This document shows, one piece after another, positions 1 to 11,629 of a stretch of 13,560 nucleotides of DNA; the first letter of the stretch is position 1, and each line of letters begins with the position of its first letter. Under the pieces are notes generated by a model that was not told the origin of the DNA, did not search any database, and saw only the letters and a list, made by a program, of their open reading frames with translations. Origin of the DNA: an uncultured Collinsella sp. Its GTDB lineage: Bacteria > Actinomycetota > Coriobacteriia > Coriobacteriales > Coriobacteriaceae. Both the position numbers and the translations under genes were made by a program. The stretch spans positions 1 through 13,560 of the forward strand of contig CAKUGT010000032.1 in the NCBI GenBank assembly GCA_934654795.1. Reading direction: 5' to 3'.

Positions 1-86
1 GATTGAGTTCGAATTCATTAGCTGGGAGCTAATGCTGCGATAAACGGTCGCGCAAGCGCGCCTTCCGCGGCAGCCCGCGGGAAACA
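1..86. other. Gene-free left edge with three short hairpins
   Basis: No credible coding sequence is seen here. There are three compact palindromes in a row: an 8-bp stem CATTAGCT/AGCTAATG around a GGG loop (16-34), a GC-only palindrome near 49-60, and CCGCGG repeated around a CAGC loop (about 66-81). They lie just downstream of the minus-strand membrane protein gene that ends at 87, so one or more could help end its transcript. None has a convincing U-tract on either strand, so no terminator is called. Confidence 0.35.
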
Positions 87-425
87 CTACCCCACCGTAA
101 CGGGCTCTCCGGTAAAGGCACTAATCATTAGCAGAACAAAGAACGCCAGATAGCTAATGCTCAATAGATAGGCGATGACCAAAAAGACAACCCATCCCAC
201 ATTGGTTTTGCCGTCGGCACGACGTTGCTCGCGGGAGCGGTAGAGCCAGATTGTCACGCCAATGGCGACAATCAGCAGCACGAGTGCCGCTGCGGCTAGT
301 CCAGCAAGCGCAAACATCACGCCTATGCTCACAGCAATAACCGGGAGCAACAATAAGCCACACCCGCATCCACCCGGACTATATACGGCAGACTGTCGGC
401 GTCGTCTCATCGCCACCCCCATCAT
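87..425 (-). CDS. Small hypothetical membrane protein, two hydrophobic segments
   Basis: The 112-residue product is not recognised as a named family. After a basic N-terminus (RRRR near residues 7-10) and a Gly/Cys-rich patch (GGCGCG, about 18-23) there is a long hydrophobic stretch at about 24-62, long enough for one or two membrane spans. A basic cytoplasmic-type loop (YRSREQRRADGK) follows, then a second hydrophobic segment at about 76-105. This suggests a small inner-membrane protein with its basic parts inside. Two nearby ATGs compete for the start: 423-425, used here, and 408-410, which gives MRRRR and has a G-rich stretch just upstream that could act as a ribosome binding site. The gene follows higA by about 10 bases on the same strand, so it may be co-transcribed with the toxin-antitoxin pair. 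That does not establish a functional link. Confidence 0.6.
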   Translation of the reverse strand: MMGVAMRRRRQSAVYSPGGCGCGLLLLPVIAVSIGVMFALAGLAAAALVLLIVAIGVTIWLYRSREQRRADGKTNVGWVVFLVIAYLLSISYLAFFVLLMISAFTGEPVTVG

Positions 426-434
426 CTTTGAGCA

Positions 435-776
435 CTACAGTGCGATGGCCTGCTGAACAGGAACGATCTTATCGAGTTCCGGTTCAATCCGCCTTTTCTC
501 GGCCTCAAGGTCAAACGCCACCTGAGCGCGCAGCCAATAACCATCCGTCAGGCCAAAATAACGGCAAAGACGGAGGTCGGTGTCGGCCGTCACGCGACGT
601 TTTCCCAAGATAATCTGCCCGATACGCTGAGCCGGAATCCCGGTCTCCTTAGCAAGGCGATATTGAGAAATGCCCATGGGAACAAGAAACTCCTCTTTGA
701 GAAGCTCACCAGGAGTCACCGGCGACAACAAATCGGCCGAAGTCTCATCACTTGTGATAATCGACGATTTCGACAT
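435..776 (-). CDS. higA: HigA-type antitoxin, XRE-family DNA-binding protein
   Basis: This is the antitoxin of a type II toxin-antitoxin pair. In the HigA family the protein neutralises the HigB RNase and represses its own operon. The 113-residue product has the usual layout: a short N-terminal arm with TPGELLKEEFL (about 22-32), then a helix-turn-helix covering about residues 35-65 (SQYRLAKETGIPAQRIGQII), then a charged helical tail. LGKRRVTADTDLRLCRYFG after the recognition helix is typical of HigA proteins. The frame is open further upstream to 851, but the ATG at 774-776 is preferred: it starts at the normal N-terminus and has AGGAG about 10 bases upstream. Its first 29 bases overlap the end of higB, so the two are probably translationally coupled. 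The toxin-first gene order is typical of hig loci. Confidence 0.85.
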   Translation of the reverse strand: MSKSSIITSDETSADLLSPVTPGELLKEEFLVPMGISQYRLAKETGIPAQRIGQIILGKRRVTADTDLRLCRYFGLTDGYWLRAQVAFDLEAEKRRIEPELDKIVPVQQAIAL

Positions 777-1029
777 TCCAAGCCATCTCCTGTCTCCACT
801 CAAAGCAGACCCGATAGCGCTCGTTAACACGGATGCTATATTGACCGGCACGATCGCCCTTCAAAGCTTCCAGGCGGTTGCCCGGTGGAACGCGAAGATC
901 ATCAAGCGAAGCACAAACCTGCAGTTGGCGAATCTTCCTCAACGCAACACGCTCAAAGGGCACGAACCTCCTGACCCGCACACCCATGGCAAAGCGTTCG
1001 GTATCCTCATCTTTATACGATGCAATCAT
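748..1029 (-). CDS. higB: HigB-type toxin (RelE superfamily mRNA interferase)
   Basis: The 93-residue product matches the HigB/RelE-like toxin pattern, a ribosome-dependent mRNA endonuclease by family knowledge. Visible landmarks are LRKIRQLQVCASLDDLRVPPGNR in the first half, then RLEALKGDRAGQYSIRVN and YRVCFEW, the beta strands with the basic residues expected to contact mRNA, and the closing VEIVDYHK motif common in this family. Length is normal and no frame damage is seen, so the toxin is probably intact. The ATG at 1027-1029 has an AAGG-containing site 7 bases upstream. It is the first gene of the higB-higA unit and is preceded by an AT-rich promoter region with inverted repeats, unlike the GC-rich surroundings, which fits acquisition of the pair by transfer. 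Confidence 0.87.
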   Translation of the reverse strand: MIASYKDEDTERFAMGVRVRRFVPFERVALRKIRQLQVCASLDDLRVPPGNRLEALKGDRAGQYSIRVNERYRVCFEWRQEMAWNVEIVDYHK

Positions 1030-1040
1030 AGTATCGCCTT

Positions 1041-1053
1041 ACGTTAGTAACGT
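1041..1053. promoter_or_regulatory. 13-bp perfect palindrome in the higBA leader
   Basis: The sequence ACGTTAGTAACGT is a perfect palindrome with a single central base, lying 12 bases upstream of the higB start codon and downstream of the predicted transcript start. Its position suits a binding site for the autoregulatory HigA antitoxin, but no HigA site for this organism is known to me, so the role is inferred. Confidence 0.4.
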
Positions 1054-1080
1054 CAAACGTTTCTATAGACTTACATCTCT

Positions 1081-1117
1081 ATTATATCGTACGTTTGTTC
1101 GTGTTTTCTAGAACAAA
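1081..1117 (-). promoter_or_regulatory. higBA promoter with inverted repeat in the -35 region
   Basis: On the minus strand a perfect -10 hexamer TATAAT lies at 1081-1086. The matching -35 region at 17-18 bp spacing is poor (AGAAAA or TAGAAA), suggesting a weak or regulated promoter. An inverted repeat TTTGTTC/GAACAAA (1094-1100 and 1111-1117, 10-base spacer) brackets that -35 position, so a bound dimer would block RNA polymerase. Autorepression by HigA is the likely logic. The region is much more AT-rich than its neighbours. Confidence 0.55.
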
Positions 1118-1131
1118 TAGTCCTTCACGCC

Positions 1132-2319
1132 TTAGTCAAGCAAAAGCAATCGTTTGTAGACATCGAGGCCCTTGAGTAGGATTTCCTCGTCGAAGAGCAT
1201 ACTATCGGTATGCAGAGCGCTTGTGGCATAGGCTGGACAGCCATCAGCGTCGATCGGGTTTTCTTGTCCCCCTGGCATACCCGTGCCCAGCAAGAAGAAC
1301 ACGCCCGGCAGATGGCGCTGATAGAACGCGAAATCCTCGGCAATGAGCAGCGGCTCGTCCACCAGTTGCAGCTCGGACAAGGCAGGCGCAATGTGGGCGA
1401 ACAGCTCGGGGTCGTTATCGACCGGCGGATAGCCCTCGGCAAAAACGAGATCGTACGTGCAGCCCGTTGCAGCGCATGCCTCATCGAGCACACGGCGTAC
1501 GCCTTCGCGTGCGCGGTCGAACATATCGTCCGTAAACACGCGCAAGCTGCCCGCAACATGGGCCTCCCCCGCCACCGCATTGCAGACGGTGCCGGCCTGC
1601 AGCAGGCCGAACTTACCAATGCAGGGTTCGTCGGCACCCAACTCGTCCATGAGCTCACGCTCGGAAACTAAGAACTTGGCCGCTGCCAGCGCCGCATCGT
1701 GCGATTCCTCGACTGGAACGCCGTAGGTCTTGGCGATATGGATACTCGTGCCATGGATATGAATGTGCATCTCGCTCGAACGCGCTAGCAGCGGACCGGG
1801 ACAGCTCGCCAACGTACCGGCAGGCAAATCGGGCCATACATGGAAGCCGAAGATGCGATCAACCCCAAAGCGTTCGAACACACCACTCTCGCATACCGTT
1901 TTGGCGCCGCCCGTTGTTTCCTCGGCCGGCTGGAACACAAAAAGCACGTTGCGCTTAATAACGCCCGGCTGCTCACGAATCGTACGGTCGACATAAGTTG
2001 CTGCCGCCAGTGCCATGGCCATGTGTCCATCGTGGCCGCAAGCGTGCATCTTGCCGGGATGCGTCGAGGCAAAGGCCGCTCCCGTTGCCTCCGCGATGGG
2101 CAGGGCGTCCATATCGGCGCGAATCGCCGTGGCATTCGTAGCGCCCACACCGGCATCGAAGAAGGCACAGACGCAGCTCGGGCAGGGATAGGTCACCTCG
2201 CAGGCAAGCAGAGCGAGCACGCCCTCGATATAGGCGATAGTTTGCTCAAGATCGAAGTCGAGCTCCGGAATGCGATGCAGGTCGCGACGATAACGACGGA
2301 GTTCTTGGAGCTCGATCAT
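1132..2319 (-). CDS. M20-family metal amidohydrolase, possible N-acetyldiaminopimelate deacetylase
   Basis: The 395-residue product is a two-metal M20D-type amidohydrolase. Candidate metal ligands are Cys94 and His96 in MHACGHDGH (91-99), Glu133/Glu134 in QPAEE (130-134), His160 in GFHVWPD and the late His of ALHTDSM. AEDFAFY in the C-terminal third is also typical. Family members remove acyl groups from amino acids; in the acetylase route to lysine such an enzyme (YkuR in Bacillus) deacetylates N-acetyl-LL-diaminopimelate. Divergent placement beside lysA-dapA-dapB-dapH favours that role, but aminoacylase or hippurate-type activity cannot be excluded. The dimerisation-domain loop is unusual: TSIHIAK replaces the usual GGHAA type, although a His is kept. 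The open frame extends to 2403, but the ATG at 2317-2319 is chosen because AAAGGA precedes it at proper spacing and MIELQELRRYRRDLHRIPEL is the usual N-terminus. Confidence 0.82.
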   Translation of the reverse strand: MIELQELRRYRRDLHRIPELDFDLEQTIAYIEGVLALLACEVTYPCPSCVCAFFDAGVGATNATAIRADMDALPIAEATGAAFASTHPGKMHACGHDGHMAMALAAATYVDRTIREQPGVIKRNVLFVFQPAEETTGGAKTVCESGVFERFGVDRIFGFHVWPDLPAGTLASCPGPLLARSSEMHIHIHGTSIHIAKTYGVPVEESHDAALAAAKFLVSERELMDELGADEPCIGKFGLLQAGTVCNAVAGEAHVAGSLRVFTDDMFDRAREGVRRVLDEACAATGCTYDLVFAEGYPPVDNDPELFAHIAPALSELQLVDEPLLIAEDFAFYQRHLPGVFFLLGTGMPGGQENPIDADGCPAYATSALHTDSMLFDEEILLKGLDVYKRLLLLD

Positions 2320-2411
2320 GGGGATTCCTTTCATGAGACGACTCGGTTGACACCTATTGTGACGCAGGATTGTGGCACCCTTGTTTCTAGCATGATGCTG
2401 CATTTTTAAAC

Positions 2412-2440
2412 GTTATATACGAATACTCTTGTTTGGTAAA
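2412..2440 (-). promoter_or_regulatory. Candidate promoter of the M20 amidohydrolase gene
   Basis: On the minus strand TTTACC (2435-2440) and TATAAC (2412-2417) are separated by 17 bases, a fair match to -35 and -10 consensus (4/6 and 5/6). Transcription would begin near 2405 and leave a leader of about 85 bases before the ATG at 2319. The -35 overlaps one arm of the inverted repeat GGTAAAG/CTTTACC (2435-2441 and 2458-2464) shared with the divergent lysine operon. Confidence 0.45.
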
Positions 2441-2457
2441 GTGCAACGTGGTAGGGT
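2430..2457 (+). promoter_or_regulatory. Weak candidate promoter for the riboswitch-lysA operon
   Basis: TTGTTT (2430-2435) and TAGGGT (2452-2457) are 16 bases apart and would start transcription near 2463-2465, just before the first paired base of the lysine riboswitch. The match to consensus is modest. Position is the main argument: the aptamer must be transcribed from somewhere very close upstream. Confidence 0.3.
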
Positions 2458-2464
2458 CTTTACC

Positions 2465-2630
2465 ACTTGATAGAGGCGCGGGCACGAAGAGCCGCGGGCG
2501 AGTCGGCAGACTTTGACCCTGCGGGGAGGCGAAACCCGCCGAACTGGGCATTTCGGGCACGAACAGCCTGGTGGGCCTGTGGGAAACACCCGCAGGACTG
2601 TCTGCAGCAATGCGGGAGCGCTATCCGGAC
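2465..2630 (+). ncRNA. Lysine riboswitch (L-box) aptamer
   Basis: This leader carries the conserved core of the lysine riboswitch, which binds free lysine and turns down lysine biosynthesis. P1 pairs GATAG (2469-2473) with CTATC (2621-2625). The 5' strand continues with AGAGGCGCG and GAAGAG, and GGGGAGGCG...CGCCGAAC closes the P2 side. P3 is ACTGGGC (2543-2549) with GCCTGGT (2566-2572). P4 is CCTGTGGG (2576-2583) with CCCGCAGG (2589-2596). P5 is CTGCA/TGCGG around a GCAA tetraloop (about 2602-2615). GGACTGTC and GGGAGCGCTATC at the 3' side match the well-known Bacillus lysC leader in order and spacing. It lies directly upstream of the lysA-dapA frame, the expected target. Confidence 0.92.
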
Positions 2631-2696
2631 ATTGGGTCCACGTTATGCGGATTCGATGCGCAGGTAGCGCCGTCTGGATAGCGAGGTTTACGGGAC
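2619..2696 (+). promoter_or_regulatory. Riboswitch expression platform and lysA ribosome binding site
   Basis: The 3' strand of aptamer helix P1 can instead pair downstream: 2619-2630 (CGCTATCCGGAC) with 2672-2683 (GTCTGGATAGCG), 12 bp with one G-U. The two pairings are mutually exclusive, as expected of a switch. The alternative helix ends at the GAGG (2683-2686) that is the only ribosome-binding-like sequence before the ATG at 2697, spacing 10 bases. No hairpin with a U-tract is present between aptamer and gene, so control of translation is more likely than a transcription terminator. How lysine binding would hide the start site is not obvious from the sequence. Confidence 0.55.
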
Positions 2697-5006
2697 ATGT
2701 CATTGACTCCCAACGAGGCATATGCGGCCAAGCGGCCGTTTGTGGACAAGGAGACGCTCGAGCATATCGTCGAGCAGTTCCCTACGCCGTTTCATCTATA
2801 CGACGAGGCGGGCATCCGCCGCAACATGCAAGAAGTGCGCGATGCCTTTGCATGGAACCCGGGCTTTAAGGAATACTTTGCCGTCAAGGCCAACCCCAAC
2901 CCGGCGCTCATCTCCATTCTCAACGAATACGGCTGCGGCTGCGATTGCTCGAGCTATACCGAGCTCATGATCGCCCGCTCGCTGGGTATCACGGGACACG
3001 ACATCATGTTCTCGTCCAACGACACGCCGGCTGCCGACTTTGAGCTCGCCGACAAGCTGGGCGCCATCGTCAACTTTGACGACATCAGCCATATCGAGTT
3101 CTTTGAGCGTGTCGCGGGGCCCATCCCCAAGACAGTCAGTTGCCGCTTTAATCCGGGCGGCTTGTTCCAGCTCTCCAACGGCATCATGGACAACCCGGGC
3201 GACTCCAAGTACGGCATGACCACCGAGCAACTCTTCGAGGCCTTCCGCATGCTCAAGGCCAAGGGCGCCGAGGACTTTGGTATCCACGCATTCCTTGCCA
3301 GCAACACCGTCACCAACGACTACTACCCCAAGCTTGCGCGCATCCTCTTTGAGCTTGCCGCGCGCTTGGAGCGCGAGACGGGCGCTCATGTCGCCTTCAT
3401 TAACCTGTCCGGTGGCGTGGGCATCCCCTATCTGCCCGAGCAGCAGGCTAACGACATCCACGCCATCGGCGAGGGCGTACACGCAGCCTACGACGAGATT
3501 CTGGTTCCCGCCGGCATGGGCGATGTGGCGATCTGCACCGAGATGGGCCGCTTTATGATGGGCCCCTACGGATGCCTGGTCACCAAGGCCATCCACGAAA
3601 AGCAGATTTACAAGGACTATATCGGCGTCGACGCAAGCGCCGTCGATCTCATTCGCCCTGCCATGTATGGCGCCTACCACCACGTTACAGTGATGGGCCA
3701 GCCGGGTGGCCCCGACAAGTCAGCAGCTCCCGTCACGAACACGTACGACATCACGGGTAACCTGTGCGAAAACAACGACAAGTTCGCCATCGACCGTGAG
3801 CTGCCGCAGATCGACATGGGCGATCTGCTCGTGATCCACGACACCGGCGCGCATGGCTACTCCATGGGCTACAACTACAACGGGCGCCTGCGCTCTGCCG
3901 AGGTATTGCTGCGTCCCGACGGCTCGGCGGATCTTATCCGTCGTGCCGAGCGCCCGGGCGACTACTTCGCCACGCTCGACGTACTGCCGTGCGGACGCGA
4001 GTTGCTGGCCAAATCGCGCGCCGAAAGCGCCCGCCGTCGTGCTCAGGACGAGCGTCTGGCCGTCGCTGCCCAATGGAACAAACGCATCCAGATCGCAGAA
4101 GCGAAGGAGAAGAATATGGATGTCCGCAATCTCGAGGGCTCGATCGTCGCCCTCGTCACGCCGTTTAAAAAGGACGGCAGCGTCGACTTTGACGCGCTCG
4201 AGCGCCTTATTGATTTCCATCTGCAGAATGGCACCGACGCCATCCTCACCTTGGGTACCACCGGCGAAAGCGCCACGATGACCGATGACGAGGACAACTC
4301 CGTCGTTGCCGCCGTGGTCAAGCAGGTCGCAGGCCGTATCCCCGTCATCGCCGGCTCGGGCTCCAACTCCACGCAGACGATGCTCACCAAGTCGCTCACC
4401 TACCAGGGCTTGGGCGCCGATGGCCTGCTGCTCATCACCCCCTACTACAACAAGTCCAACGAAGAGGGTATCTACCAGCACTTTAAGACCGTGGCCGACG
4501 CCGTGGACATCCCCTGCATCCTGTACAACATTCCCGGTCGTTGCGGTTGCGGCATCAGCGAGCGCAATGTCGAGCGCCTGGCAGCACATCCCAACATCAT
4601 GGGCATCAAGGAGGCCTCGGGCAACGTCGCCTATGCCGCCAAGATCGCGCATCTGCTGTCCGACGACTTCCGCATGTACTCGGGCGAAGACGCGCTTACC
4701 GTGCCGCTCATGAGCCTGGGCGCCTCGGGCACCATCAGCGTGTGGGCCGACGTGCAGCCGCAACTCGTGCACGACATGTGCCGTGCCTACCTGGACGGTG
4801 ACGTGGAGCGCGCCCGCGAGATCCAGATTGCCGGTCAGCCGCTCATCAACGCCCTCTTTAGCGAGGTCAACCCCATCCCCGTTAAGGAAGCGCTCGCCCA
4901 GATGGGCATGATCGAGGCAAACTACCGCATGCCGCTGTGTCCCATGGCAGACGACACGCGCGCCGCACTCACCGATGCTCTGAAGGGAGCTGGTCTGCTT
5001 GATTAA
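2697..5006 (+). CDS. lysA-dapA: LysA-DapA fusion: diaminopimelate decarboxylase + 4-hydroxy-tetrahydrodipicolinate synthase
   Basis: One uninterrupted 769-codon frame joins the last and an early enzyme of lysine synthesis. Residues 1 to about 435 are a PLP-dependent fold-type III decarboxylase making lysine from meso-DAP: PLP lysine K64 in YFAVKANPNP, GIHAFLASNTVTNDYY (196-210), SGGVG (238-242), TEMGR (281-285), CENND (357-361) and GYNYNGRLR (391-399). Residues about 436-473 form a charged, probably helical stretch (RRRAQDERLAVAAQ). Residues 474-769 are a full DapA, joining pyruvate and aspartate semialdehyde: GTTGES, YNIPGR (Tyr610) and GIKEAS (Schiff-base Lys638). A ribosome binding site and ATG lie at the junction, so free DapA may also be made. 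The ATG start at 2697 follows the riboswitch; the TAA overlaps dapB. A recently lost lysA stop codon or a sequencing error are alternatives to a functional fusion. Confidence 0.88.
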   Translation: MSLTPNEAYAAKRPFVDKETLEHIVEQFPTPFHLYDEAGIRRNMQEVRDAFAWNPGFKEYFAVKANPNPALISILNEYGCGCDCSSYTELMIARSLGITGHDIMFSSNDTPAADFELADKLGAIVNFDDISHIEFFERVAGPIPKTVSCRFNPGGLFQLSNGIMDNPGDSKYGMTTEQLFEAFRMLKAKGAEDFGIHAFLASNTVTNDYYPKLARILFELAARLERETGAHVAFINLSGGVGIPYLPEQQANDIHAIGEGVHAAYDEILVPAGMGDVAICTEMGRFMMGPYGCLVTKAIHEKQIYKDYIGVDASAVDLIRPAMYGAYHHVTVMGQPGGPDKSAAPVTNTYDITGNLCENNDKFAIDRELPQIDMGDLLVIHDTGAHGYSMGYNYNGRLRSAEVLLRPDGSADLIRRAERPGDYFATLDVLPCGRELLAKSRAESARRRAQDERLAVAAQWNKRIQIAEAKEKNMDVRNLEGSIVALVTPFKKDGSVDFDALERLIDFHLQNGTDAILTLGTTGESATMTDDEDNSVVAAVVKQVAGRIPVIAGSGSNSTQTMLTKSLTYQGLGADGLLLITPYYNKSNEEGIYQHFKTVADAVDIPCILYNIPGRCGCGISERNVERLAAHPNIMGIKEASGNVAYAAKIAHLLSDDFRMYSGEDALTVPLMSLGASGTISVWADVQPQLVHDMCRAYLDGDVERAREIQIAGQPLINALFSEVNPIPVKEALAQMGMIEANYRMPLCPMADDTRAALTDALKGAGLLD
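4103..4118 (+). promoter_or_regulatory. Internal ribosome binding site and ATG for dapA inside the fused frame
   Basis: GAAGGAG (4103-4109) stands 6 bases before ATG (4116-4118), a better ribosome binding site than the one used at the start of the whole frame. The ATG is exactly where a normal DapA begins. It decides whether DapA is made only as a fusion or also as a separate protein. Confidence 0.7.
4116..5006 (+). CDS. dapA: DapA, internal start within the lysA-dapA frame
   Basis: Translation from the internal ATG would give a 296-residue DapA of normal family length. It is a class I aldolase TIM barrel that condenses pyruvate with aspartate-4-semialdehyde. Numbered from this ATG, the catalytic residues are present: Thr48/Thr49 in GTTGES, Tyr111 in TPYYNK, Tyr137 in YNIPGR with Arg142, and the Schiff-base Lys165 in GIKEASG. 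NPIPVKEAL near the C-terminus is also typical. The N-terminus MDVRNLEGSIVALVTPF is what a stand-alone DapA looks like, and nothing upstream is needed for the fold. The stop TAA (5004-5006) overlaps the TTG start of dapB by 8 bases, so translation of the two is probably coupled. Listed separately because both products are plausible. Confidence 0.75.
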   Translation: MDVRNLEGSIVALVTPFKKDGSVDFDALERLIDFHLQNGTDAILTLGTTGESATMTDDEDNSVVAAVVKQVAGRIPVIAGSGSNSTQTMLTKSLTYQGLGADGLLLITPYYNKSNEEGIYQHFKTVADAVDIPCILYNIPGRCGCGISERNVERLAAHPNIMGIKEASGNVAYAAKIAHLLSDDFRMYSGEDALTVPLMSLGASGTISVWADVQPQLVHDMCRAYLDGDVERAREIQIAGQPLINALFSEVNPIPVKEALAQMGMIEANYRMPLCPMADDTRAALTDALKGAGLLD

Positions 5007-5739
5007 GACCGTCATTATGGGAACGGGCCGCATGGGCTCGCTCATCCGCACCACCGCCGAGGGCATTGTCGATGCCGCCGGTCAGCCCGTCTTTGATATC
5101 GTCACCCAGATCGGCTTTAACCTGACCGAGCTCGAAAGCGCTCCGGCGGCTGACGTGATTATCGACTTCTCGAACGTCGTGACCTTTGACGCCGTTGTCG
5201 CCTATGTCGAGCGCACGGGCGCTGCACTGGTCTCGGGCACCACGGGATATACGCCCGAGCAGATGGACCGCCTGCGCGAGCTGGGCCAGAACGCCCGCGT
5301 CATGCATTCGGGCAACTACTCCATCGGCATCGCCGCCCTGCGTCACCTGGTGGCCCAGGCAACGCGCGAGCTGCCCGGCTTTGACTGCGAGATCGTCGAG
5401 ACACACCACAACCAAAAGGTCGACGCCCCCAGCGGCACGGCCAAGCTGCTGCTTGACGCCGTGGTCGAAGCCGAGCCTGAGGCCGGATACCATCCCGTCT
5501 ACGGCCGTGAGGGCATGTGCGGCGCCCGCGACCCCAAGGAGATCGGCATGCACTCGCTGCGCGGCGGTACCGTAGCCGGTGTGCACGAGGTGAGCTTCTT
5601 TGGACAGGACGAGGAGGTCACCCTCACGCACCGCGCCACGAGCCGCCAGATCTTCGTCAACGGCGCCCTGGCGGCCGCCCAGAAGCTCGTCGTCCGCGAC
5701 CCCGGCTTCTACACCTTCGACCAGGTCATGTTTGCCTAA
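4999..5739 (+). CDS. dapB: 4-hydroxy-tetrahydrodipicolinate reductase DapB
   Basis: The 246-residue product reduces the DapA product to tetrahydrodipicolinate with NAD(P)H. The N-terminal Rossmann fold shows VIMGTGRMG (5-13), IIDFSN (54-59) and SGTTGYT (79-85). The catalytic and substrate-binding block is ETHHNQKVDAPSGTA (134-148), with His136/His137 and Lys140. SLRGGTVAGVHEV and the C-terminal FVNGALAAAQ follow the family. The start is TTG at 4999-5001, preceded by AAGGGAGC at good spacing; it reads straight into the conserved nucleotide-binding strand, so a later start would remove essential sequence. It overlaps the end of the dapA frame by 8 bases. Length is slightly short of some proteobacterial enzymes but normal for Gram-positives. 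It is the second gene of the riboswitch-controlled operon. Confidence 0.95.
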   Translation: MIKTVIMGTGRMGSLIRTTAEGIVDAAGQPVFDIVTQIGFNLTELESAPAADVIIDFSNVVTFDAVVAYVERTGAALVSGTTGYTPEQMDRLRELGQNARVMHSGNYSIGIAALRHLVAQATRELPGFDCEIVETHHNQKVDAPSGTAKLLLDAVVEAEPEAGYHPVYGREGMCGARDPKEIGMHSLRGGTVAGVHEVSFFGQDEEVTLTHRATSRQIFVNGALAAAQKLVVRDPGFYTFDQVMFA

Positions 5740-5778
5740 CCAATCATTAACCAAGCCCACGTAAAGGAGAAACAGTAT

Positions 5779-6498
5779 ATGAGCAACGCAGCCGAGATGG
5801 ATGCACAGGAGATTATCAACTACATCGCCACCGCGCCCAAGAAGACGCCCGTCAAGCTGTATGTGCGCGAGAAGCCCGGCATGAAGGTTGCCTGGGGCGA
5901 TGCGCACGTCTATGGCGGTCGTCGTGGCAAGACCGTCTTTGGCGACTGGGATGAGCTCAAGACCATCCTCGACGCCAACGCCGACTCCATCGACTACTAC
6001 GACGTCGAGAACGATTGCCGCAATTCCGCCGTCCCCATGCTCGACCTTAAGGGCATCAACGCCCGCATCGAGCCGGGCGCGATTATCCGCGACCGCGTCG
6101 AGATCGGTGACCGCGCCGTCATCATGATGGGCGCCATCATCAACATCGGCTCTGTCATTGGCGAAGGTTCCATGATCGATATGGGCGCCGTGCTAGGCGG
6201 CCGCGCCACCGTGGGCAAGAACTGCCACATCGGTGCCGGCACCGTACTGGCGGGCGTCGTTGAGCCCGCGAGTGCCACGCCCGTCATCATCGAGGACGAT
6301 GTCATGATTGGCGCAAACGCCGTGGTCCTGGAGGGCGTGCGCGTGGGCAAGGGCGCCGTCGTAGCCGCCGGTGCCGTATGCGTCGAGGACGTCCCCGCCG
6401 GCGCCGTCGTGGCCGGCGTTCCCGCCCGCGTCATCAAGATGCGCGACGAAAAGACCGACAGCAAGACCGGTCTCGAAGAAGGTTTACGTCAACTTTAA
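5779..6498 (+). CDS. dapH: Tetrahydrodipicolinate N-acetyltransferase DapH
   Basis: The 239-residue product acetylates tetrahydrodipicolinate with acetyl-CoA, which commits the cell to the acetylase branch of DAP synthesis. An N-terminal DapH-specific domain (about 1-90, including [19 protein letters not shown]) precedes a left-handed beta-helix of hexapeptide repeats from about residue 95 to 215 ([36 protein letters not shown] and so on). The [22 protein letters not shown] segment is typical of DapH. A strong AAAGGAGA lies 8 bases before the ATG, 39 bases after dapB. It is the last gene of the operon: its TAA is followed immediately by a perfect hairpin. The presence of DapH rather than succinylase DapD argues that a deacetylase and an N-acetyl-DAP aminotransferase are needed; candidates for both lie in this window. 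Confidence 0.95.
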
Positions 6499-6530
6499 TA
6501 GTTACGGCGTTTTACCAAACGCCGTAACTA
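6499..6530. repeat. Perfect 14-bp hairpin directly after the dapH stop
   Basis: TAGTTACGGCGTTT (6499-6512) and AAACGCCGTAACTA (6517-6530) are exact complements around a 4-base loop TACC. It starts at the base after the dapH stop codon, so it would cap the 3' end of the operon mRNA. Neither side has a U-tract, so it is not a standard intrinsic terminator. It may protect the 3' end or belong to a larger structure with the following element. Confidence 0.6.
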
Positions 6531-6541
6531 CCCGACGCTGC

Positions 6542-6639
6542 AAACGCCCCTAGGCGGCAATCTGACGTTCAATCGTCGGTCGCGTACCGAAGTACGCTTC
6601 CCTCCTCTTTCACGTCACCTTGCTCACCTAGGGGCGTTT
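6542..6639. other. 98-nt rod-like structured element with UUCG-type apex (possible small RNA or repeat)
   Basis: The ends are exact complements: AAACGCCCCTAGG (6542-6554) and CCTAGGGGCGTTT (6627-6639). Moving inward, GCAA (6557-6560) pairs with TTGC (6620-6623), TGACGT (6563-6568) with ACGTCA (6612-6617), GG (6578-6579) with CC (6600-6601), and GCGTAC (6582-6587) with GTACGC (6592-6597). On the minus strand the apical loop reads C(UUCG)G, a classic extra-stable RNA tetraloop; on the plus strand it is CGAA. This suggests that the minus-strand RNA is the functional one, though all stem pairs are Watson-Crick and do not decide strand. No protein-coding frame with a good start covers it. It could be a small RNA, a dispersed repeat, or an unusual 3'-end structure. 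Confidence 0.5.
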
Positions 6640-6682
6640 TCGCTGACGTATGCTCAGTCTGCAACTCAATTCAGCTCCAAGC

Positions 6683-6722
6683 AAAAAGGCCGAAGTCCCG
6701 AAGGGTTTCGACCTTTGTTTTT
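6683..6722 (-). terminator. Intrinsic terminator of the nucleoid-associated protein gene, probably bidirectional
   Basis: Read on the minus strand, AAAGGTCGAA pairs with TTCGGCCTTT (one G-U), capped by an inner CC-UUCG-GG loop, and is followed by UUUUU (complement of 6683-6687). It begins about 25 bases after the stop of the minus-strand gene ending at 6743. On the plus strand the same hairpin has one A-C mismatch and is followed by TTTGTTTTT, so it may also stop readthrough from the lysine operon. Confidence 0.85.
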
Positions 6723-6742
6723 CTGCAGCTTACAAGCGCAGT

Positions 6743-7756
6743 TTATCGATTCTCAATTGACCCGATGTTTTTGAGCTCGATGGAGATGAGGCCGTTGGGC
6801 TCGTTGACGAACTCGATGTACTCGGAGTTCGAGCCCATCTCGGCCGGGAAGCTGATTTCGATGCCCGTGTCGGTACGTATCTTATGATTGCGCACGGCCG
6901 CGCGCTCGACCTGTTTGCGCTCCACGGGCACGCGCTCGGGCACCTTCTCCTCGGTCAGCGCCGCACGCACGCTCTCTTTGATGACCGGCTCGTCCTCAAA
7001 GACCTCGTCGACGATATCCCAAGGCGGCAGTTCCTCGTCGTCTTCGACCTTCTCGGCAACAGCGGCCTTGACCTTGGCGAGCACCACGGCCGTGTTGGCG
7101 CCGTGCTCCTCGGCAACCTCCTCGACCACACGCGTCACGGTGTCGATAATCTCCTTGCCCGACACGCCCGTATCGCACTGCAGCAGCCCGTCAGGAATAA
7201 GCATGCGGTCCTCGCCGGCGATCTTGCGCTTCTTGTCCACGTAGCCGATCTCCATGGTGCTCGCACGCACGATTGCGTAGCTCGGCACCTTTTGCGAAGG
7301 GTTCGGCAGGATGGCGTAATGGCGCGCGATATCGTTGCGTACCTCACCCTCCTCGCGGCCCACCTCGTGCATAAAGGCCTGCTTGGAGCCAAGCAGCATC
7401 ACGGCAAACCAGCGGGCGTCCTCGTCATCGTCAAAGTCCGCCACAAGCACGTCGGTGGACTCGGCCTTTTCGGCCTTGGTAAGCTCCGAAGAGATGAACT
7501 CCGCAATCTGCTGCGACAGGTCTACGAACTCGCGCTCGCCAAAGAAATAACCCTTGAGCTCGCCGCCGAATGCGGAGTTCTCGGCAAATGTGGCGCGCTT
7601 GTTATCTGCCGAAGTACGGGCGCGACGCAGGTGCGTGGTCACGAAGTTGCGCACGGTACGGCTCTCGATATCGAGCTCGCGTTGGCTCATGACGTTGACG
7701 GCCGAGTCAAAGTCCAGGATATGCAGGATTGCGTGATTGATTTTCATATACGGCAT
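6743..7756 (-). CDS. Nucleoid-associated protein, YejK/NdpA family
   Basis: The product (337 residues) resembles the 37-kDa nucleoid-associated protein family. Members bind or associate with the nucleoid; their exact biochemical role is poorly defined. Supporting features are the N-terminus INHAILHILDF, the segment SSELTKAEKAESTDVLVADFDDDEDARWFAVMLL (about 90-123) and the KQAFMHEV region with a following beta strand (ILPNPSQKVPSYAIV), plus the C-terminal ISFPAEMGSNSEYIEF and ISIELKNIG. A strongly acidic stretch (EDDEELPPWDIVDEVFEDEP) divides the two halves. The start is ambiguous: ATG 7754-7756 gives MPYMKINHAIL, while ATG 7745-7747 gives MKINHAIL, which fits the usual family start and has GGA about 9 bases upstream. 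It ends before a good terminator. It appears to be a single-gene unit, independent of the lysine operon it converges on. Confidence 0.8.
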   Translation of the reverse strand: MPYMKINHAILHILDFDSAVNVMSQRELDIESRTVRNFVTTHLRRARTSADNKRATFAENSAFGGELKGYFFGEREFVDLSQQIAEFISSELTKAEKAESTDVLVADFDDDEDARWFAVMLLGSKQAFMHEVGREEGEVRNDIARHYAILPNPSQKVPSYAIVRASTMEIGYVDKKRKIAGEDRMLIPDGLLQCDTGVSGKEIIDTVTRVVEEVAEEHGANTAVVLAKVKAAVAEKVEDDEELPPWDIVDEVFEDEPVIKESVRAALTEEKVPERVPVERKQVERAAVRNHKIRTDTGIEISFPAEMGSNSEYIEFVNEPNGLISIELKNIGSIENR

Positions 7757-7822
7757 TCCGTTCTAGATCGAATTGAGCACGAATCAGTATAGCGGTCGAG
7801 CCCTCTCCAAGCGCATCGAAGA

Positions 7823-7854
7823 TTGGTGCATCGGGGACAGGTCGCTTTGCGCCA
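7823..7854 (+). repeat. REP-like palindromic repeat, diverged copy
   Basis: These 32 bases contain a copy of the unit that forms each arm of the big inverted repeat at 9037-9111; 25 of 31 aligned positions agree with the 9037-9067 arm. The ends GGTGC and GCGCC can form a short stem, a common feature of REP sequences. It lies 4 bases beyond the stop of the DUF2974-type gene, in the same orientation as the copy upstream of that gene. Confidence 0.6.
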
Positions 7855-7858
7855 GTGG

Positions 7859-9019
7859 CTAGTGCAGAAGCTCGGACTGCCATGCCTCGAGCTGCTCCGC
7901 CAGGCTCTTGCCAGCGATGGGAACATTGAGCTCGGCGCGCTTGGGCAGCAGCGCACATTTTAGAATTGCTACGATCGTCTGCGAAATAAAGCGGCGCGTA
8001 TCCTTGTCGAAGCCTTGGGCAGCCTGAAGCATCACCGGCAGGCTCTCGCGCAGATTCCCTGCGATATCTGCAAACCGTTCGGCGCCCGTAGCCTCAAACA
8101 CGGAAAACAGCGCGTCCACAAAGCGCTCGCGTTCGGCAGGCTCCACCGCAAGCAACATCTCACGAATAGAGCTATCGACGTATCGCGCGCCGGCAGACAG
8201 ACGCTCGCAATACACAAAGTCGCAGCCGTCAATGACCCAGCTAAAGGGATTGTGCTGCAGCAGACTGAATTCGGTGCTCTCGACAATGGCGTAATCCTCC
8301 TGCGTCTCGAACATCATGCCGAAAATCGACGACTGCGGCAGGGTTTTATCGATGCGACCGGACAGGCCTGCAAAGGCATCGCCACTCAGGAACTCCTCGA
8401 CAAAGCCGGGGCCATCATGCGAGAAGGCCCTCTCGATTCGGTCACCAGCGGCGTCAGAGCACATCGCCGCGCCATACACCGCCAAGTTGCCGCCTTTGGA
8501 ATGGCCTCCGCACAAGAGCGGTCCATCAATCGCGGCCGCCGCCTCGTCCACGTAGCGCGCCGCAGATTCCTGGGAGGGCACGGGACACCGGAACGCCATG
8601 TTAAAGTCCTCTTTCCAGCCCACGATCGTGCTGTCGGTCCCGCGGAAGGAAAGGTAGCTGAATCCTGCCGGAAATCGGAACGTCATGGCTGCAAATTGCT
8701 CCGTCATCGACGCATCGTTCACGTCACGATAACCGCAAACGCGCACGCCGCGGTAGCGAGGACTTGCCGCAACAGCCTCCAGCAAGGCGCGACTCTCCTC
8801 CGGGTCCCACAGGTCACCAATCATGTCCTGGTAGCACTCGGCACGCAGCAGTTCACGCATGTCCAGCCCCTGCCAGCCGGCAAGCTCCGGCATATCCCCC
8901 GGCAAGCGCAAATACGACAGCCATGCAAACACCAGGCTGTCCACCGCGCAGAACGACCGCTCCTCAAACGAATCGAACGCCGTCTGGGCATACGTCAAAA
9001 AGTTAGGCGAATCCGACAT
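7859..9019 (-). CDS. DUF2974-type alpha/beta hydrolase (lipase-like)
   Basis: The 386-residue product looks like the DUF2974 family, lipase-like alpha/beta hydrolases with unknown substrate. The N-terminal part has EERSFCAVDSLVFAWLSYL (about 19-37), typical of the family. A beta strand with FRGTDST (125-131) leads to the nucleophile elbow GGHSKGGNLAVYGA (171-184) with predicted catalytic Ser174. FSHDGPGF (about 197-204) supplies an Asp in the usual position, and a later His would complete a triad. No signal peptide or transmembrane segment is obvious, so it is probably cytoplasmic. GGGAG precedes the ATG at 9017-9019 by about 5 bases. It is flanked by related short palindromic repeats and does not look co-transcribed with ldh, whose terminator intervenes. 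Confidence 0.8.
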   Translation of the reverse strand: MSDSPNFLTYAQTAFDSFEERSFCAVDSLVFAWLSYLRLPGDMPELAGWQGLDMRELLRAECYQDMIGDLWDPEESRALLEAVAASPRYRGVRVCGYRDVNDASMTEQFAAMTFRFPAGFSYLSFRGTDSTIVGWKEDFNMAFRCPVPSQESAARYVDEAAAAIDGPLLCGGHSKGGNLAVYGAAMCSDAAGDRIERAFSHDGPGFVEEFLSGDAFAGLSGRIDKTLPQSSIFGMMFETQEDYAIVESTEFSLLQHNPFSWVIDGCDFVYCERLSAGARYVDSSIREMLLAVEPAERERFVDALFSVFEATGAERFADIAGNLRESLPVMLQAAQGFDKDTRRFISQTIVAILKCALLPKRAELNVPIAGKSLAEQLEAWQSELLH

Positions 9020-9036
9020 GCCTCTCCCATCAACAA

Positions 9037-9111
9037 TGGTGCATTGGGGTCAGGTTTGTTTGCACCAATCGCGCCCTTTTTGGTGCAAACAAACCTGACC
9101 CCAATGCACCA
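9037..9111. repeat. Perfect 32-bp inverted repeat, REP/BIME-like
   Basis: The arms 9037-9068 and 9080-9111 are exact reverse complements (32 bp) around an 11-base loop (9069-9079). Each arm contains GGTGC...GCACC, itself able to form a small stem, so the element is a head-to-head pair of REP-like units. The core GGGGTCAGG resembles short repeats that are often linked with Y1 (IS200/RAYT-type) transposases; that link is from memory and no transposase is in the window. A third, diverged copy is at 7823-7854. Confidence 0.85.
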
Positions 9112-9144
9112 AAAAAGGCGCCCGGGCCGTGGGGCCTGGACGCC
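9111..9144 (-). terminator. Intrinsic terminator of ldh
   Basis: On the minus strand GGCGTCC pairs with GGGCGCC (one T-G), with an inner GGCC/GGCC stem, followed by UUUUUU (complement of 9111-9116). It lies about 33 bases beyond the ldh stop codon. Its U-tract abuts the right arm of the large inverted repeat. Confidence 0.9.
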
Positions 9145-9176
9145 TTCATTGTAGCTTGCTGACAAACGAGCTGGAT

Positions 9177-10127
9177 TTAGCAGGAGAAATCGACGCTGTC
9201 GATGATGTCCTTGAGGGCCTTTGCAGAAGCGGTAAGCTCGCTCTGCTCGGACTCGTTCAGCGGCACGGGAACGCGGCAGACAACGCCGTCGCGACCGACG
9301 ACGGTCGGCATGGAGATGGCCAGATCGGACAGGCCGTACTCGCCCACCATGAGCGAGGAGACGGGCAGAACGGTCTGCTCGTCACGCATGACAGCGGTGC
9401 AGATACGCTTAACGGCCATGGCAACGCCGTAGTAGGTGGCGTGCTTCTTCTCGATGATGGTGTAGGCGGAGTTCTTGACGTCCTCGGCGATACGCTTCTC
9501 GGCAGCCTCGTGCTCCAGATGGCCGTGAAGCTCGCAGAAGGTGCTCAGCGGCACGCCGGCAACCTGGGCGCTGGACCAAGCGACGAACTCGGAGTCGCCG
9601 TGCTCGCCCATGACGTAAGCCTGAACGTCGCGCGGGTCGACCTCGACGTGGGCGCCGAGCATCTGCTGCAGACGGCCAGTGTCGAGCACGGTGCCGGAAC
9701 CGATGACGTGGCCCTCGGGCAGGCCGGACATCTTGATGGCGGCATAGGTCAGAACGTCAACCGGGTTGGAGACGATCAGCAGGATGCCGTCAAAGCCGGA
9801 CTTCTTAATCTCGGGGATGATGGACTTAAAGATGTTGACGTTCTTGTTGACCAGGTCCAGGCGGGTCTCACCGGGCTTCTGGGCAGCGCCAGCGGTGACG
9901 ACGATCATAGCGGCGTCGGCGACATCAGAATAATCGCCGGCATAGATCTTCATCGGCTCGGCAAACGTCATGCCGTGCGCAATATCCAGGGCCTCGCCCT
10001 CGGCGCGGTTCTTGTCCACGTCGATGAGAACCATCTCGGAGAACAGACCACTCTGCATCAGTGCGAACGCCGAGGACGAACCGACGAAGCCGCAGCCGAC
10101 AATAGCGACCTTCTTCTCGTTAACCAT
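9177..10127 (-). CDS. ldh: L-lactate dehydrogenase
   Basis: The 316-residue product interconverts pyruvate and L-lactate with NADH/NAD+, regenerating NAD+ during fermentation. The Rossmann fold shows GCGFVG (11-16) and an acidic residue at strand end (Asp36, NAD preference). In the active-site loop, AAQKPGETRLDL carries Gln83, the residue that specifies lactate over malate, and Arg89. Asn121 (VSNPVD), Arg152 (DTGRLQ) and the proton-relay His176 in VMGEHGDSE are all present. The frame is open far upstream to 10427, but the ATG at 10125-10127 is clear: MVNEKKVAIVG is the usual start and GGGAG sits 6 bases ahead. It is preceded by a 199-base gap with a terminator-like hairpin and followed by a strong terminator, so it is probably a single-gene transcript. 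No clear redox-repressor (Rex) site was recognised. Confidence 0.96.
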   Translation of the reverse strand: MVNEKKVAIVGCGFVGSSSAFALMQSGLFSEMVLIDVDKNRAEGEALDIAHGMTFAEPMKIYAGDYSDVADAAMIVVTAGAAQKPGETRLDLVNKNVNIFKSIIPEIKKSGFDGILLIVSNPVDVLTYAAIKMSGLPEGHVIGSGTVLDTGRLQQMLGAHVEVDPRDVQAYVMGEHGDSEFVAWSSAQVAGVPLSTFCELHGHLEHEAAEKRIAEDVKNSAYTIIEKKHATYYGVAMAVKRICTAVMRDEQTVLPVSSLMVGEYGLSDLAISMPTVVGRDGVVCRVPVPLNESEQSELTASAKALKDIIDSVDFSC

Positions 10128-10149
10128 TACAAACTCCCATCTCTCTCCA

Positions 10150-10179
10150 CAAACAAACCGCCCAGGGCGACCCGAGCGG
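10150..10179 (-). terminator. Terminator-like hairpin in the ldh leader
   Basis: On the minus strand CCGCTCGGG pairs with CCTGGGCGG (9 bp, two wobble pairs) around a TCGC loop, followed by UUUGUUUG (10150-10157). It ends about 22 bases before the ldh ATG. It may end readthrough from the aminotransferase gene, or act as an attenuator if the ldh promoter lies upstream of it (10190-10320). No clear promoter was recognised in that remaining stretch; it holds only a weak CGAAA/TTTCG hairpin at 10287-10300. Confidence 0.5.
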
Positions 10180-10326
10180 CTTGCCGTAATCCCAATACAT
10201 CCAATCGGGACTTTGATTATGCTCCTATTGCAGCCAAATATCGACCGTTTACCGAAATTGTTTGCAGAATTCGTAAAATAACTGCACGAAATCGGTTTCG
10301 AGCTATTGACTAGCCCAAATGAACTT

Positions 10327-11490
10327 CTAATACAGGCCCGCCTCGCGAATAGCCTCAACAGCCAAGGCGATCTGATCGGGCGGCAGCACCAGCGCCATAC
10401 GCACGTGTCCCTCGCCCGAAGGGCCAAAGCTCGCGCCCGGCGTCACGACGACACCGGCCTTCTCCATGAGCTCCTCGCAAAACGCCATCGAGTCGGTGCG
10501 GCCGCCGGGGAGCTTGGCCCACACGAACATGGAGCCATGCGCGTTGGGGCGCTCCCAGCCTAGGCCCTCAAGACCATCGCACAGGGCATCGCGACGCTCC
10601 TGGTACTTCAGGCACTGCGCCTCGACCTCATCGCGCGGACCGTTGAGGCAGGCGATAGCGGCCTTCTGGATCGGGAAGAACATGCCAAAGTCAATCTGGC
10701 TGCGCAGCTTGGCGAAGGCCGAGACCACGTCCTCGCGACCGACCAAAAAGCCGATGCGGGCGCCGGTGACGTTAAACGACTTGGAGAGCGAGAAGAACTC
10801 CACACCCACCTCGAGCGCACCGGGATACTGCAGAAAGCTGCCGCCCGGCTCGCCGTCGAACACGATATCCGAATAGGCGTTGTCGTGGACGATCAGCAGG
10901 TCGTGCTCGCGGGCGAAGGCGATAATCTCCTCGTAGACCTCAGGCGTGCCCACCGAGCCAACCGGGTTGGCGGGCAGCGACACGATCATGTACTTGGCGC
11001 GGTCGGCGACCTCTGGATCGATGCCCGCCACATAGGGCAGGTAGTTATGCTCGGCGACCAACGGGTAGTACTCGAGCTTGGCATCGGCGATCTTGGCGCC
11101 CGCCTCAAAGACTGGGTAGCACGGATCGGGCACCAGGATCGTATCGCCCGGGTCGAGCAGCGCCAGACCCAAGTGGCCCACGCCCTCCTGCGTGCCGTTG
11201 CACGACTGCACCATGGACGGCGTAATGCCCGAAACGCCAAAGCGGCGCTCGTAGTAATCGCACACGGCCTGCTTGAGCTCGGGCAGGTCGCGCAGGGCGT
11301 ACTTCCACATCTCGGGGTCCTGGGCGGCCTGGGTCAGCGCCTCGACCACGTGGTCGTATGGCTTAAAGTCGGGCGTGCCCACACTCATGTTGTAAATGGT
11401 CTTGCCCTGGGCTTTAAGCGCAAGAAGCTTGTTGTTGAGCGAGGCAAAAACCTCCGCGCCAAAGCGGTCGAGACGCTGCGATGCCTGCAT
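10327..11490 (-). CDS. PLP-dependent class I/II aminotransferase, possible (N-acetyl-)LL-diaminopimelate aminotransferase
   Basis: The 387-residue product is a fold-type I aminotransferase. Visible landmarks are MSVGTPDFKPYD (35-46), CNGTQEGVGHLGLALLDPGD (97-116), PDPCYPVF (121-128), PANPVGS (173-179), HDNAYSDI (202-209) with PLP-contacting Asp203 and Tyr206, and SLSKSFNVTGARIGF (234-248) with Schiff-base Lys237. A C-terminal Arg in GHVRMAL is the expected carboxylate binder. The overall pattern is close to LL-diaminopimelate aminotransferase-like proteins. With dapH in the window, a role as the N-acetyl-LL-DAP aminotransferase (PatA-like) is attractive but unproven; alanine or another amino acid is also possible. 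The frame extends upstream to 11580, but the ATG at 11488-11490 has AAAGGTGG just ahead and gives the usual N-terminus. A strong hairpin terminator lies only 18 bases before this ATG. Confidence 0.85.
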   Translation of the reverse strand: MQASQRLDRFGAEVFASLNNKLLALKAQGKTIYNMSVGTPDFKPYDHVVEALTQAAQDPEMWKYALRDLPELKQAVCDYYERRFGVSGITPSMVQSCNGTQEGVGHLGLALLDPGDTILVPDPCYPVFEAGAKIADAKLEYYPLVAEHNYLPYVAGIDPEVADRAKYMIVSLPANPVGSVGTPEVYEEIIAFAREHDLLIVHDNAYSDIVFDGEPGGSFLQYPGALEVGVEFFSLSKSFNVTGARIGFLVGREDVVSAFAKLRSQIDFGMFFPIQKAAIACLNGPRDEVEAQCLKYQERRDALCDGLEGLGWERPNAHGSMFVWAKLPGGRTDSMAFCEELMEKAGVVVTPGASFGPSGEGHVRMALVLPPDQIALAVEAIREAGLY

Positions 11491-11508
11491 GGTGCCACCT
11501 TTCGATAC

Positions 11509-11540
11509 AAAAAACGCGACGCTCCGACAAGAGCGCCGCG
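11509..11540 (-). terminator. Intrinsic terminator between nadE and the aminotransferase gene
   Basis: On the minus strand CGCGGCGCTC pairs with GAGCGTCGCG (10 bp, one G-U) around TTGTCG, followed by UUUUUU (complement of 11509-11514). It lies about 90 bases after the nadE stop and only 18 bases before the aminotransferase ATG. It can end nadE transcription, but leaves no room for a promoter downstream, so it must lie inside the aminotransferase leader. Confidence 0.85.
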
Positions 11541-11629
11541 CGATACGGGCCATCAGATTGCAAAAGTGTAACGCTTGCATCCCCTGTTTTGGTTCAATTT
11601 AGCCAACCTGAGCCAATCGGAGCGCGGTG

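Follow-up and report, generated by a model that had tools for sequence, protein, structure and literature searches.

In Bacillus subtilis, the aspartokinase II gene contains an internal in-frame start and yields the alpha and beta subunits of the enzyme. In phage endolysins, one gene can give a longer and a shorter product in the same frame through internal initiation, and some of these products join in a complex of unequal subunits, according to the excerpted text of PMC9430671. The nearest known kind to the locus described here is the ask-lysA fusion of Xanthomonadaceae, for which the authors suggest co-localization and faster feedback in the accessible portion of their paper (PMC1885841). 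A literature search with little coverage of subscription journals found no description of a LysA-DapA fusion, and the accessible portions of PMC1885841 and PMC8305020 describe none.

We analyzed a window of 13,560 nucleotides from an uncultured Collinsella sp. (contig CAKUGT010000032.1, positions 1 to 13,560). On its forward strand, a single open reading frame (ORF) at 2697..5006 encodes a lysA-dapA product of 769 amino acids with no stop codon inside; among the relatives, 20 have the same frame open and one has it split by TAG. The initial annotation had placed LysA and DapA in one frame, and the matches to TIGR01048 and TIGR00674, found in this order along the 769 codons, bear this out. The computed masses are 83.9 kDa for the fusion and 31.7 kDa for DapA. 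The profile of the aspartate kinase/LysA fusion (PRK08961) was matched at positions 497-859 of 861 only, with 175.1 bits against a cut-off of 802. In the genomes of the fused group, the fusion is the sole full-length LysA match and the sole DapA above the cut-off; a further DapA-family gene, below the cut-off, occurs in every one of them except G035.

The LysA domain (2697..4004, plus strand, residues 1-436) matched TIGR01048 over residues 15-424, as well as diaminopimelate (DAP) decarboxylases in the PDB. The match is nearly full-length, with 270.8 bits against the curated NCBIfam cut-off of 297.9, which LysA reached in 0 of the 43 genomes of the genus. With the score under this cut-off, we infer the substrate of LysA: judged by the operon and the riboswitch, the domain should act as LysA, and membership of the equivalog family is not claimed. 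By its profile scores, the LysA of the genus (2697-4010 in the window) is a divergent subfamily. LysA proteins of Lachnospiraceae are ~70% identical, which hints at gene transfer. The DapA domain (4116..5006, plus strand) has its own ATG at codon 474, present in 22 of 22 sequences, and passed the curated cut-off of TIGR00674 over residues 481-763 (337.5 bits versus 206.15). The initial annotation had found the joining of LysA to an often feedback-inhibited step unusual, an argument that is weak for this enzyme. Positions 53, 56 and 84 (E. coli numbering), which we take to belong to the lysine site of DapA, are D, D and T by a hand count on the alignment to Pseudomonas aeruginosa DapA. Lysine feedback is therefore unlikely, and we would expect this DapA to be lysine-insensitive.

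The genes lie on one strand in the order lysine riboswitch, lysA-dapA, dapB and dapD. The dapB gene (4999..5739, plus strand) matched TIGR00036 with 178.5 bits, and the TTG start of its mechanical ORF overlaps the dapA stop; dapD (5779..6498, plus strand) is of the acetyl type and matched TIGR03532 with 346.7 bits. The lysine riboswitch aptamer (RF00168, 2463..2631, plus strand) ends 65 nt ahead of the lysA start and was found in the Rfam search of the window over the full model length, with 72.8 bits against a gathering score of 30. The riboswitch region could be aligned with few differences across all 22 sequences. The 3' strand of its P1 helix is able to pair with GTCTGGATAGCG directly 5' of the lysA start, and inspection revealed no T-run in the 65 nt between the aptamer and the start. 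Translational control by the riboswitch is plausible from these features.

The frame spanning both genes is found in 21 of the 43 genomes of the genus (20 open and one, G007, with a TAG), while 12 have separate genes and 10 lack both; the completeness of these genomes is not given. In a wider scan, which sampled 396 Coriobacteriia genomes evenly out of a larger set and scored two candidates per genome, a stop-free spanning match was confined to those 20, and spanning matches with at least one stop were seen in G007 and 31 other genomes. A scan of species genomes gave 80 loci, of which 35 have dapA no more than 1 kb downstream of lysA, fused in 12 and separate in 23. All 12 fused loci are titled Collinsella and probably overlap with the 20 open-frame genomes. 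Relatives had been named as the place to look for a stop between the genes: more distant ones do have it, as in the closest unfused genome found (G013), with an in-frame TAA five codons before the dapA ATG, but all except one of the 21 closest frames are open, and the fusion stands. Within the fused set, LysA shows a mean pairwise synonymous difference of 0.25 per site, indicating that the fusion is not recent. Judged from this divergence, the fusion predates the split of the 21 genomes carrying the spanning frame. The recent stop loss envisaged in the initial annotation is thus contradicted, both by this age (~25% of synonymous sites differ in LysA) and by the conservation of the linker as protein. 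On these comparisons, the LysA-DapA fusion is almost certainly real, settled and widespread.

The linker (4005..4115, plus strand, codons 437-473) was compared over 22 distinct sequences (the window and 21 relatives) by uncorrected Nei-Gojobori counts. The pN/pS was 0.048 for LysA, 0.081 for the linker and 0.035 for DapA. Parsimony on the tree gave 79 synonymous, 17 nonsynonymous and one nonsense change in the linker, and under neutrality, with an assumed kappa of 3, the probability of 17 or fewer nonsynonymous changes among 96 is 3e-27. By this pattern of changes, the linker is translated and under strong purifying selection as protein. A pN/pS of 0.08 makes it very probable that the fused chain is produced and has a use. 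The linker had also been taken for a probable helix: AlphaFold2 indeed placed a helix at residues 431-466 (pTM 0.57), but the confidence was below 50 at 453-471, so the model lends the helical linker weak support.

We consider the locus, with a probability of roughly 0.6, to encode a bifunctional lysine enzyme, settled in the Collinsella aerofaciens group, that would also yield free DapA for mixed tetramers. In the known families, LysA dimerizes and DapA forms tetramers. When lysine is low, ribosomes would initiate at lysA to give LysA-DapA, and would also initiate at the retained internal AAGGAG/ATG to give free DapA. The free DapA would enter the DapA tetramers, in which some subunits would then have no LysA, and the LysA dimers would thereby be kept from cross-linking tetramers into networks. 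The fusion would be tolerable if, as is probable, DAP is not in the wall; DapA and LysA would then serve one product, making separate control unneeded. The complete scheme, in which one lysine-controlled gene would supply the fusion and free DapA at a fixed proportion for mixed tetramers carrying LysA dimers, a particle uniting an early and the final enzyme of lysine synthesis, enabled by a wall that abandoned DAP, is tentative, and we give it clearly less than an even chance.

The wall component of this scheme was compared with the genomes of the genus. The same 33 of the 43 genomes carry lysA, the operon dapA and dapB, and all three are jointly absent from 10 (G015, G017, G022, G023, G025, G027, G028, G033, G038 and G043), of which G025 retains one other DapA-family gene above the cut-off. 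The best MurE matches of 14 genomes (L142-L155; two fused, two with separate genes and 10 without the route) read DDPG in 10, DDAG in one, EDPA in two and DEPA in one at the specificity motif; the best match of G001 is of a different type, with EDPA. DNPR, which we assume marks DAP use at this motif, was found in 0 of the 14, in an alignment with no DAP-type MurE as control. The wall of C. aerofaciens probably contains ornithine. The accessible portions of three papers give a 'unique peptidoglycan type' for Collinsella, include a table that lists A4beta under Eubacterium and cites the C. aerofaciens transfer paper, and do not state the diamino acid of the Collinsella wall (PMC11382707, PMC6113628, PMC4149003). 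From the gene content and the motifs, the genus probably has a wall without DAP. If DAP is only a lysine intermediate, LysA and DapA could be joined without starving the wall.

The junction reads GCGAAGGAG AAGAAT ATG GAT. GAAGGAG at 4103-4109 is followed by a 6-nt spacer and the ATG at 4116-4118, which is codon 474 and lies exactly at the dapA start. The ORF hence contains a ribosome-binding site and an in-frame start codon, in agreement with the earlier proposal that the dapA start was kept and that the gene could give two products. The putative internal ribosome-binding site (AAGGAG, 4104..4109, plus strand) and the ATG are invariant in 22 of 22 sequences (the window and 21 relatives). For the background, we collected 720 distinct internal in-frame ATG contexts from mechanical ORFs of at least 200 amino acids in the window and 24 related loci, and counted AAGGAG or AGGAGG located 4-10 nt 5' of the ATG. 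Such a 6-mer preceded 12 of the 720 ATGs. Seven were variants of the codon-474 site, and the other five fell at presumed starts of dapA or lysA in other Collinsella, the mechanical ORF being over-extended there at the 5' end; the remaining 708 internal ATGs had none. A looser 5-mer criterion was satisfied at 26 of the 720. The 6-mer was present at only 13 of 176 mechanical ORF starts, many of which are surely misplaced, so not every gene of this group requires it.

These counts weigh against the strongest rival, in which the product is always LysA-DapA and the internal site is a leftover, preserved through protein selection on the linker or through codon bias: a 6-mer at such spacing preceded none of the 708 other internal ATGs, and the site is invariant throughout. 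Furthermore, the divergent fused proteins P0013 and P0018 keep KEKNM before DapA even though the earlier linker has changed. Other observations fit the rival. Linker codons 458-473 are constrained as protein, with 10 nonsynonymous among 31 changes. Synonymous-site conservation near the site was not significant: third-position changes are few there, but the lowest of the 12 windows tested is equalled or beaten by 12% of windows, and this conservation was dropped as proof of an internal start. Elsewhere, AAG and GAG codons that encode a constant residue do not vary in nine of 21 and 11 of 25 cases, respectively, so invariance at the internal site proves little. Among the 22 database proteins spanning the junction, 20 have KEKNM and two (P0017 and P0030, the latter representing 34 members) have KGKNM, which would break AAGGAG. 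Taken together, a protein that is always fused is the less likely reading, and the sequence evidence leans modestly towards use of the internal DapA start.

A second rival holds that the open frame is incidental: the internal start would provide most DapA, and the fused product would be a minor or useless by-product. The internal site exists, as this rival requires, and both a split allele and a shifted one are known. In G007, a TAG at codon 439 (4011..4013, plus strand; AAA in the window) divides lysA from dapA and leaves the internal site intact; P0032 runs into another frame after the linker, which fits the alternative frame of the window with its stop inside dapA. G007 groups with the window and L081 within the fused group in a tree drawn without branch support, and this nesting makes the TAG a derived state. 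It was rejected as the ancestral state on this ground and because P0013 and P0018 have R at the codon-439 position. The TAG may be a sequence error in this one genome, or its DapA may no longer function, as the genus tolerates the loss of lysine synthesis. Split alleles, seen here in G007 as a single genome, are therefore no proof of a working start. Protein selection on the linker and 20 open frames out of 21 are hard to explain with an incidental frame, which we regard as very improbable.

The bifunctional enzyme with additional free DapA was also compared with the database proteins at this locus, for which we examined the best 120 of 7994 matches; fusions outside Coriobacteriia were assessed only among these. 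P0002, a 769-residue fusion, represents a 90% cluster of 44,670 member sequences. Such clusters may include fragments, so member counts are not taken as counts of intact fusions. Two divergent fused representatives are P0013 (88% identity, nine members) and P0018 (86%, 40 members). Stand-alone LysA proteins at 97% or more among the 120 are P0031 (71 members), P0032 (353), P0239 (122), P0240 (four) and P0257 (71), the last three being short pieces. DapA proteins of 296-310 amino acids at 97% or more among the listed 120 are P0122 (five members) and P0123 (423 members). P0123, in which the linker is translated in a different frame before the DapA frame resumes, was set aside. P0014-P0028 combine a Lachnospiraceae-like LysA front with a near-identical Collinsella rear. 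They are likely assembly chimeras, possibly products of recombination, and were excluded as fused lineages. P0036, P0037 and P0042 likewise resemble chimeras, which makes the protein tree a weaker guide to the history of the P0035 stop. A sequencing or assembly artefact, which chimera-like entries such as P0014-P0028 might suggest, has a negligible probability, as none was found at the junction and the same open frame occurs in 20 genomes and 12 named Collinsella loci.

Loss of the lysA stop, possibly at codon 459 (4071..4073, plus strand), may have created the fusion, in one event or a few. This codon, the candidate lost stop, is CAA in the window, one change from TAA; across the 22 sequences it is CAA in 17, CAG in four and AAA in one, each one change from TAA or TAG. 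P0035, an unfused LysA of 459 amino acids (two members), stops where the fused proteins have residue 459 and has most of its tail in common with the fused P0018. It kept its stop or could have regained it. The stretch from WNKRI onward is conserved in P0001, P0013 and P0018 and would be the old dapA leader. Further fusions were considered in G042 and G036, whose LysA frames have 850 and 737 codons, and no DapA fusion was found: the G042 frame ends with LysA and has its surplus length upstream, and the 731-residue ORF of G036 ends before the dapA stretch. In both genomes (L172 2-2548 and L173 948-3143, respectively), ~300-400 open codons lie upstream of LysA, either by chance, the DNA being GC-rich, or as an upstream extension. 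G005 (C2:22117-26042) and G009 (C5:30499-34425) contain the remains of a second lysA-dapA copy: a DapA piece of 66% identity that includes a TAG and, ~3 kb to its upstream side, a LysA piece of 56% identity.

The fusion sits in a very common group of human gut bacteria. With the LysA half below the NCBIfam cut-off, annotation may name DapA only, and lysine synthesis may seem unfinished. With its fused, split and lost states, the locus is a natural system in which to study the reasons for fusion of pathway enzymes and to ask if a dimer is more easily joined to a tetramer when an internal start is present. A connection of wall chemistry with enzyme fusion can be tested in it as well.

Comparison with known systems showed both similarities and differences. 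In other Coriobacteriia, lysA and dapA are separate neighbors in the same gene order, and spanning matches exist in 31 genomes; however, at least one stop lies within the match in 31 of 31. In B. subtilis aspartokinase II, a lysine-pathway gene likewise has an internal in-frame start that gives a second subunit, but the products are two forms of one enzyme, as opposed to two pathway enzymes. Phage endolysins share the in-frame internal start, whereas the proteins are unrelated and the two products are proven there, as reported in the accessible text of PMC9430671, while those of lysA-dapA are predicted. The ask-lysA fusion of Xanthomonadaceae (PRK08961), as described in the accessible text of PMC1885841, also joins LysA to an early enzyme of the same pathway. 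However, its partner is aspartokinase and LysA forms the rear, whereas in Collinsella LysA forms the front and the partner is DapA.
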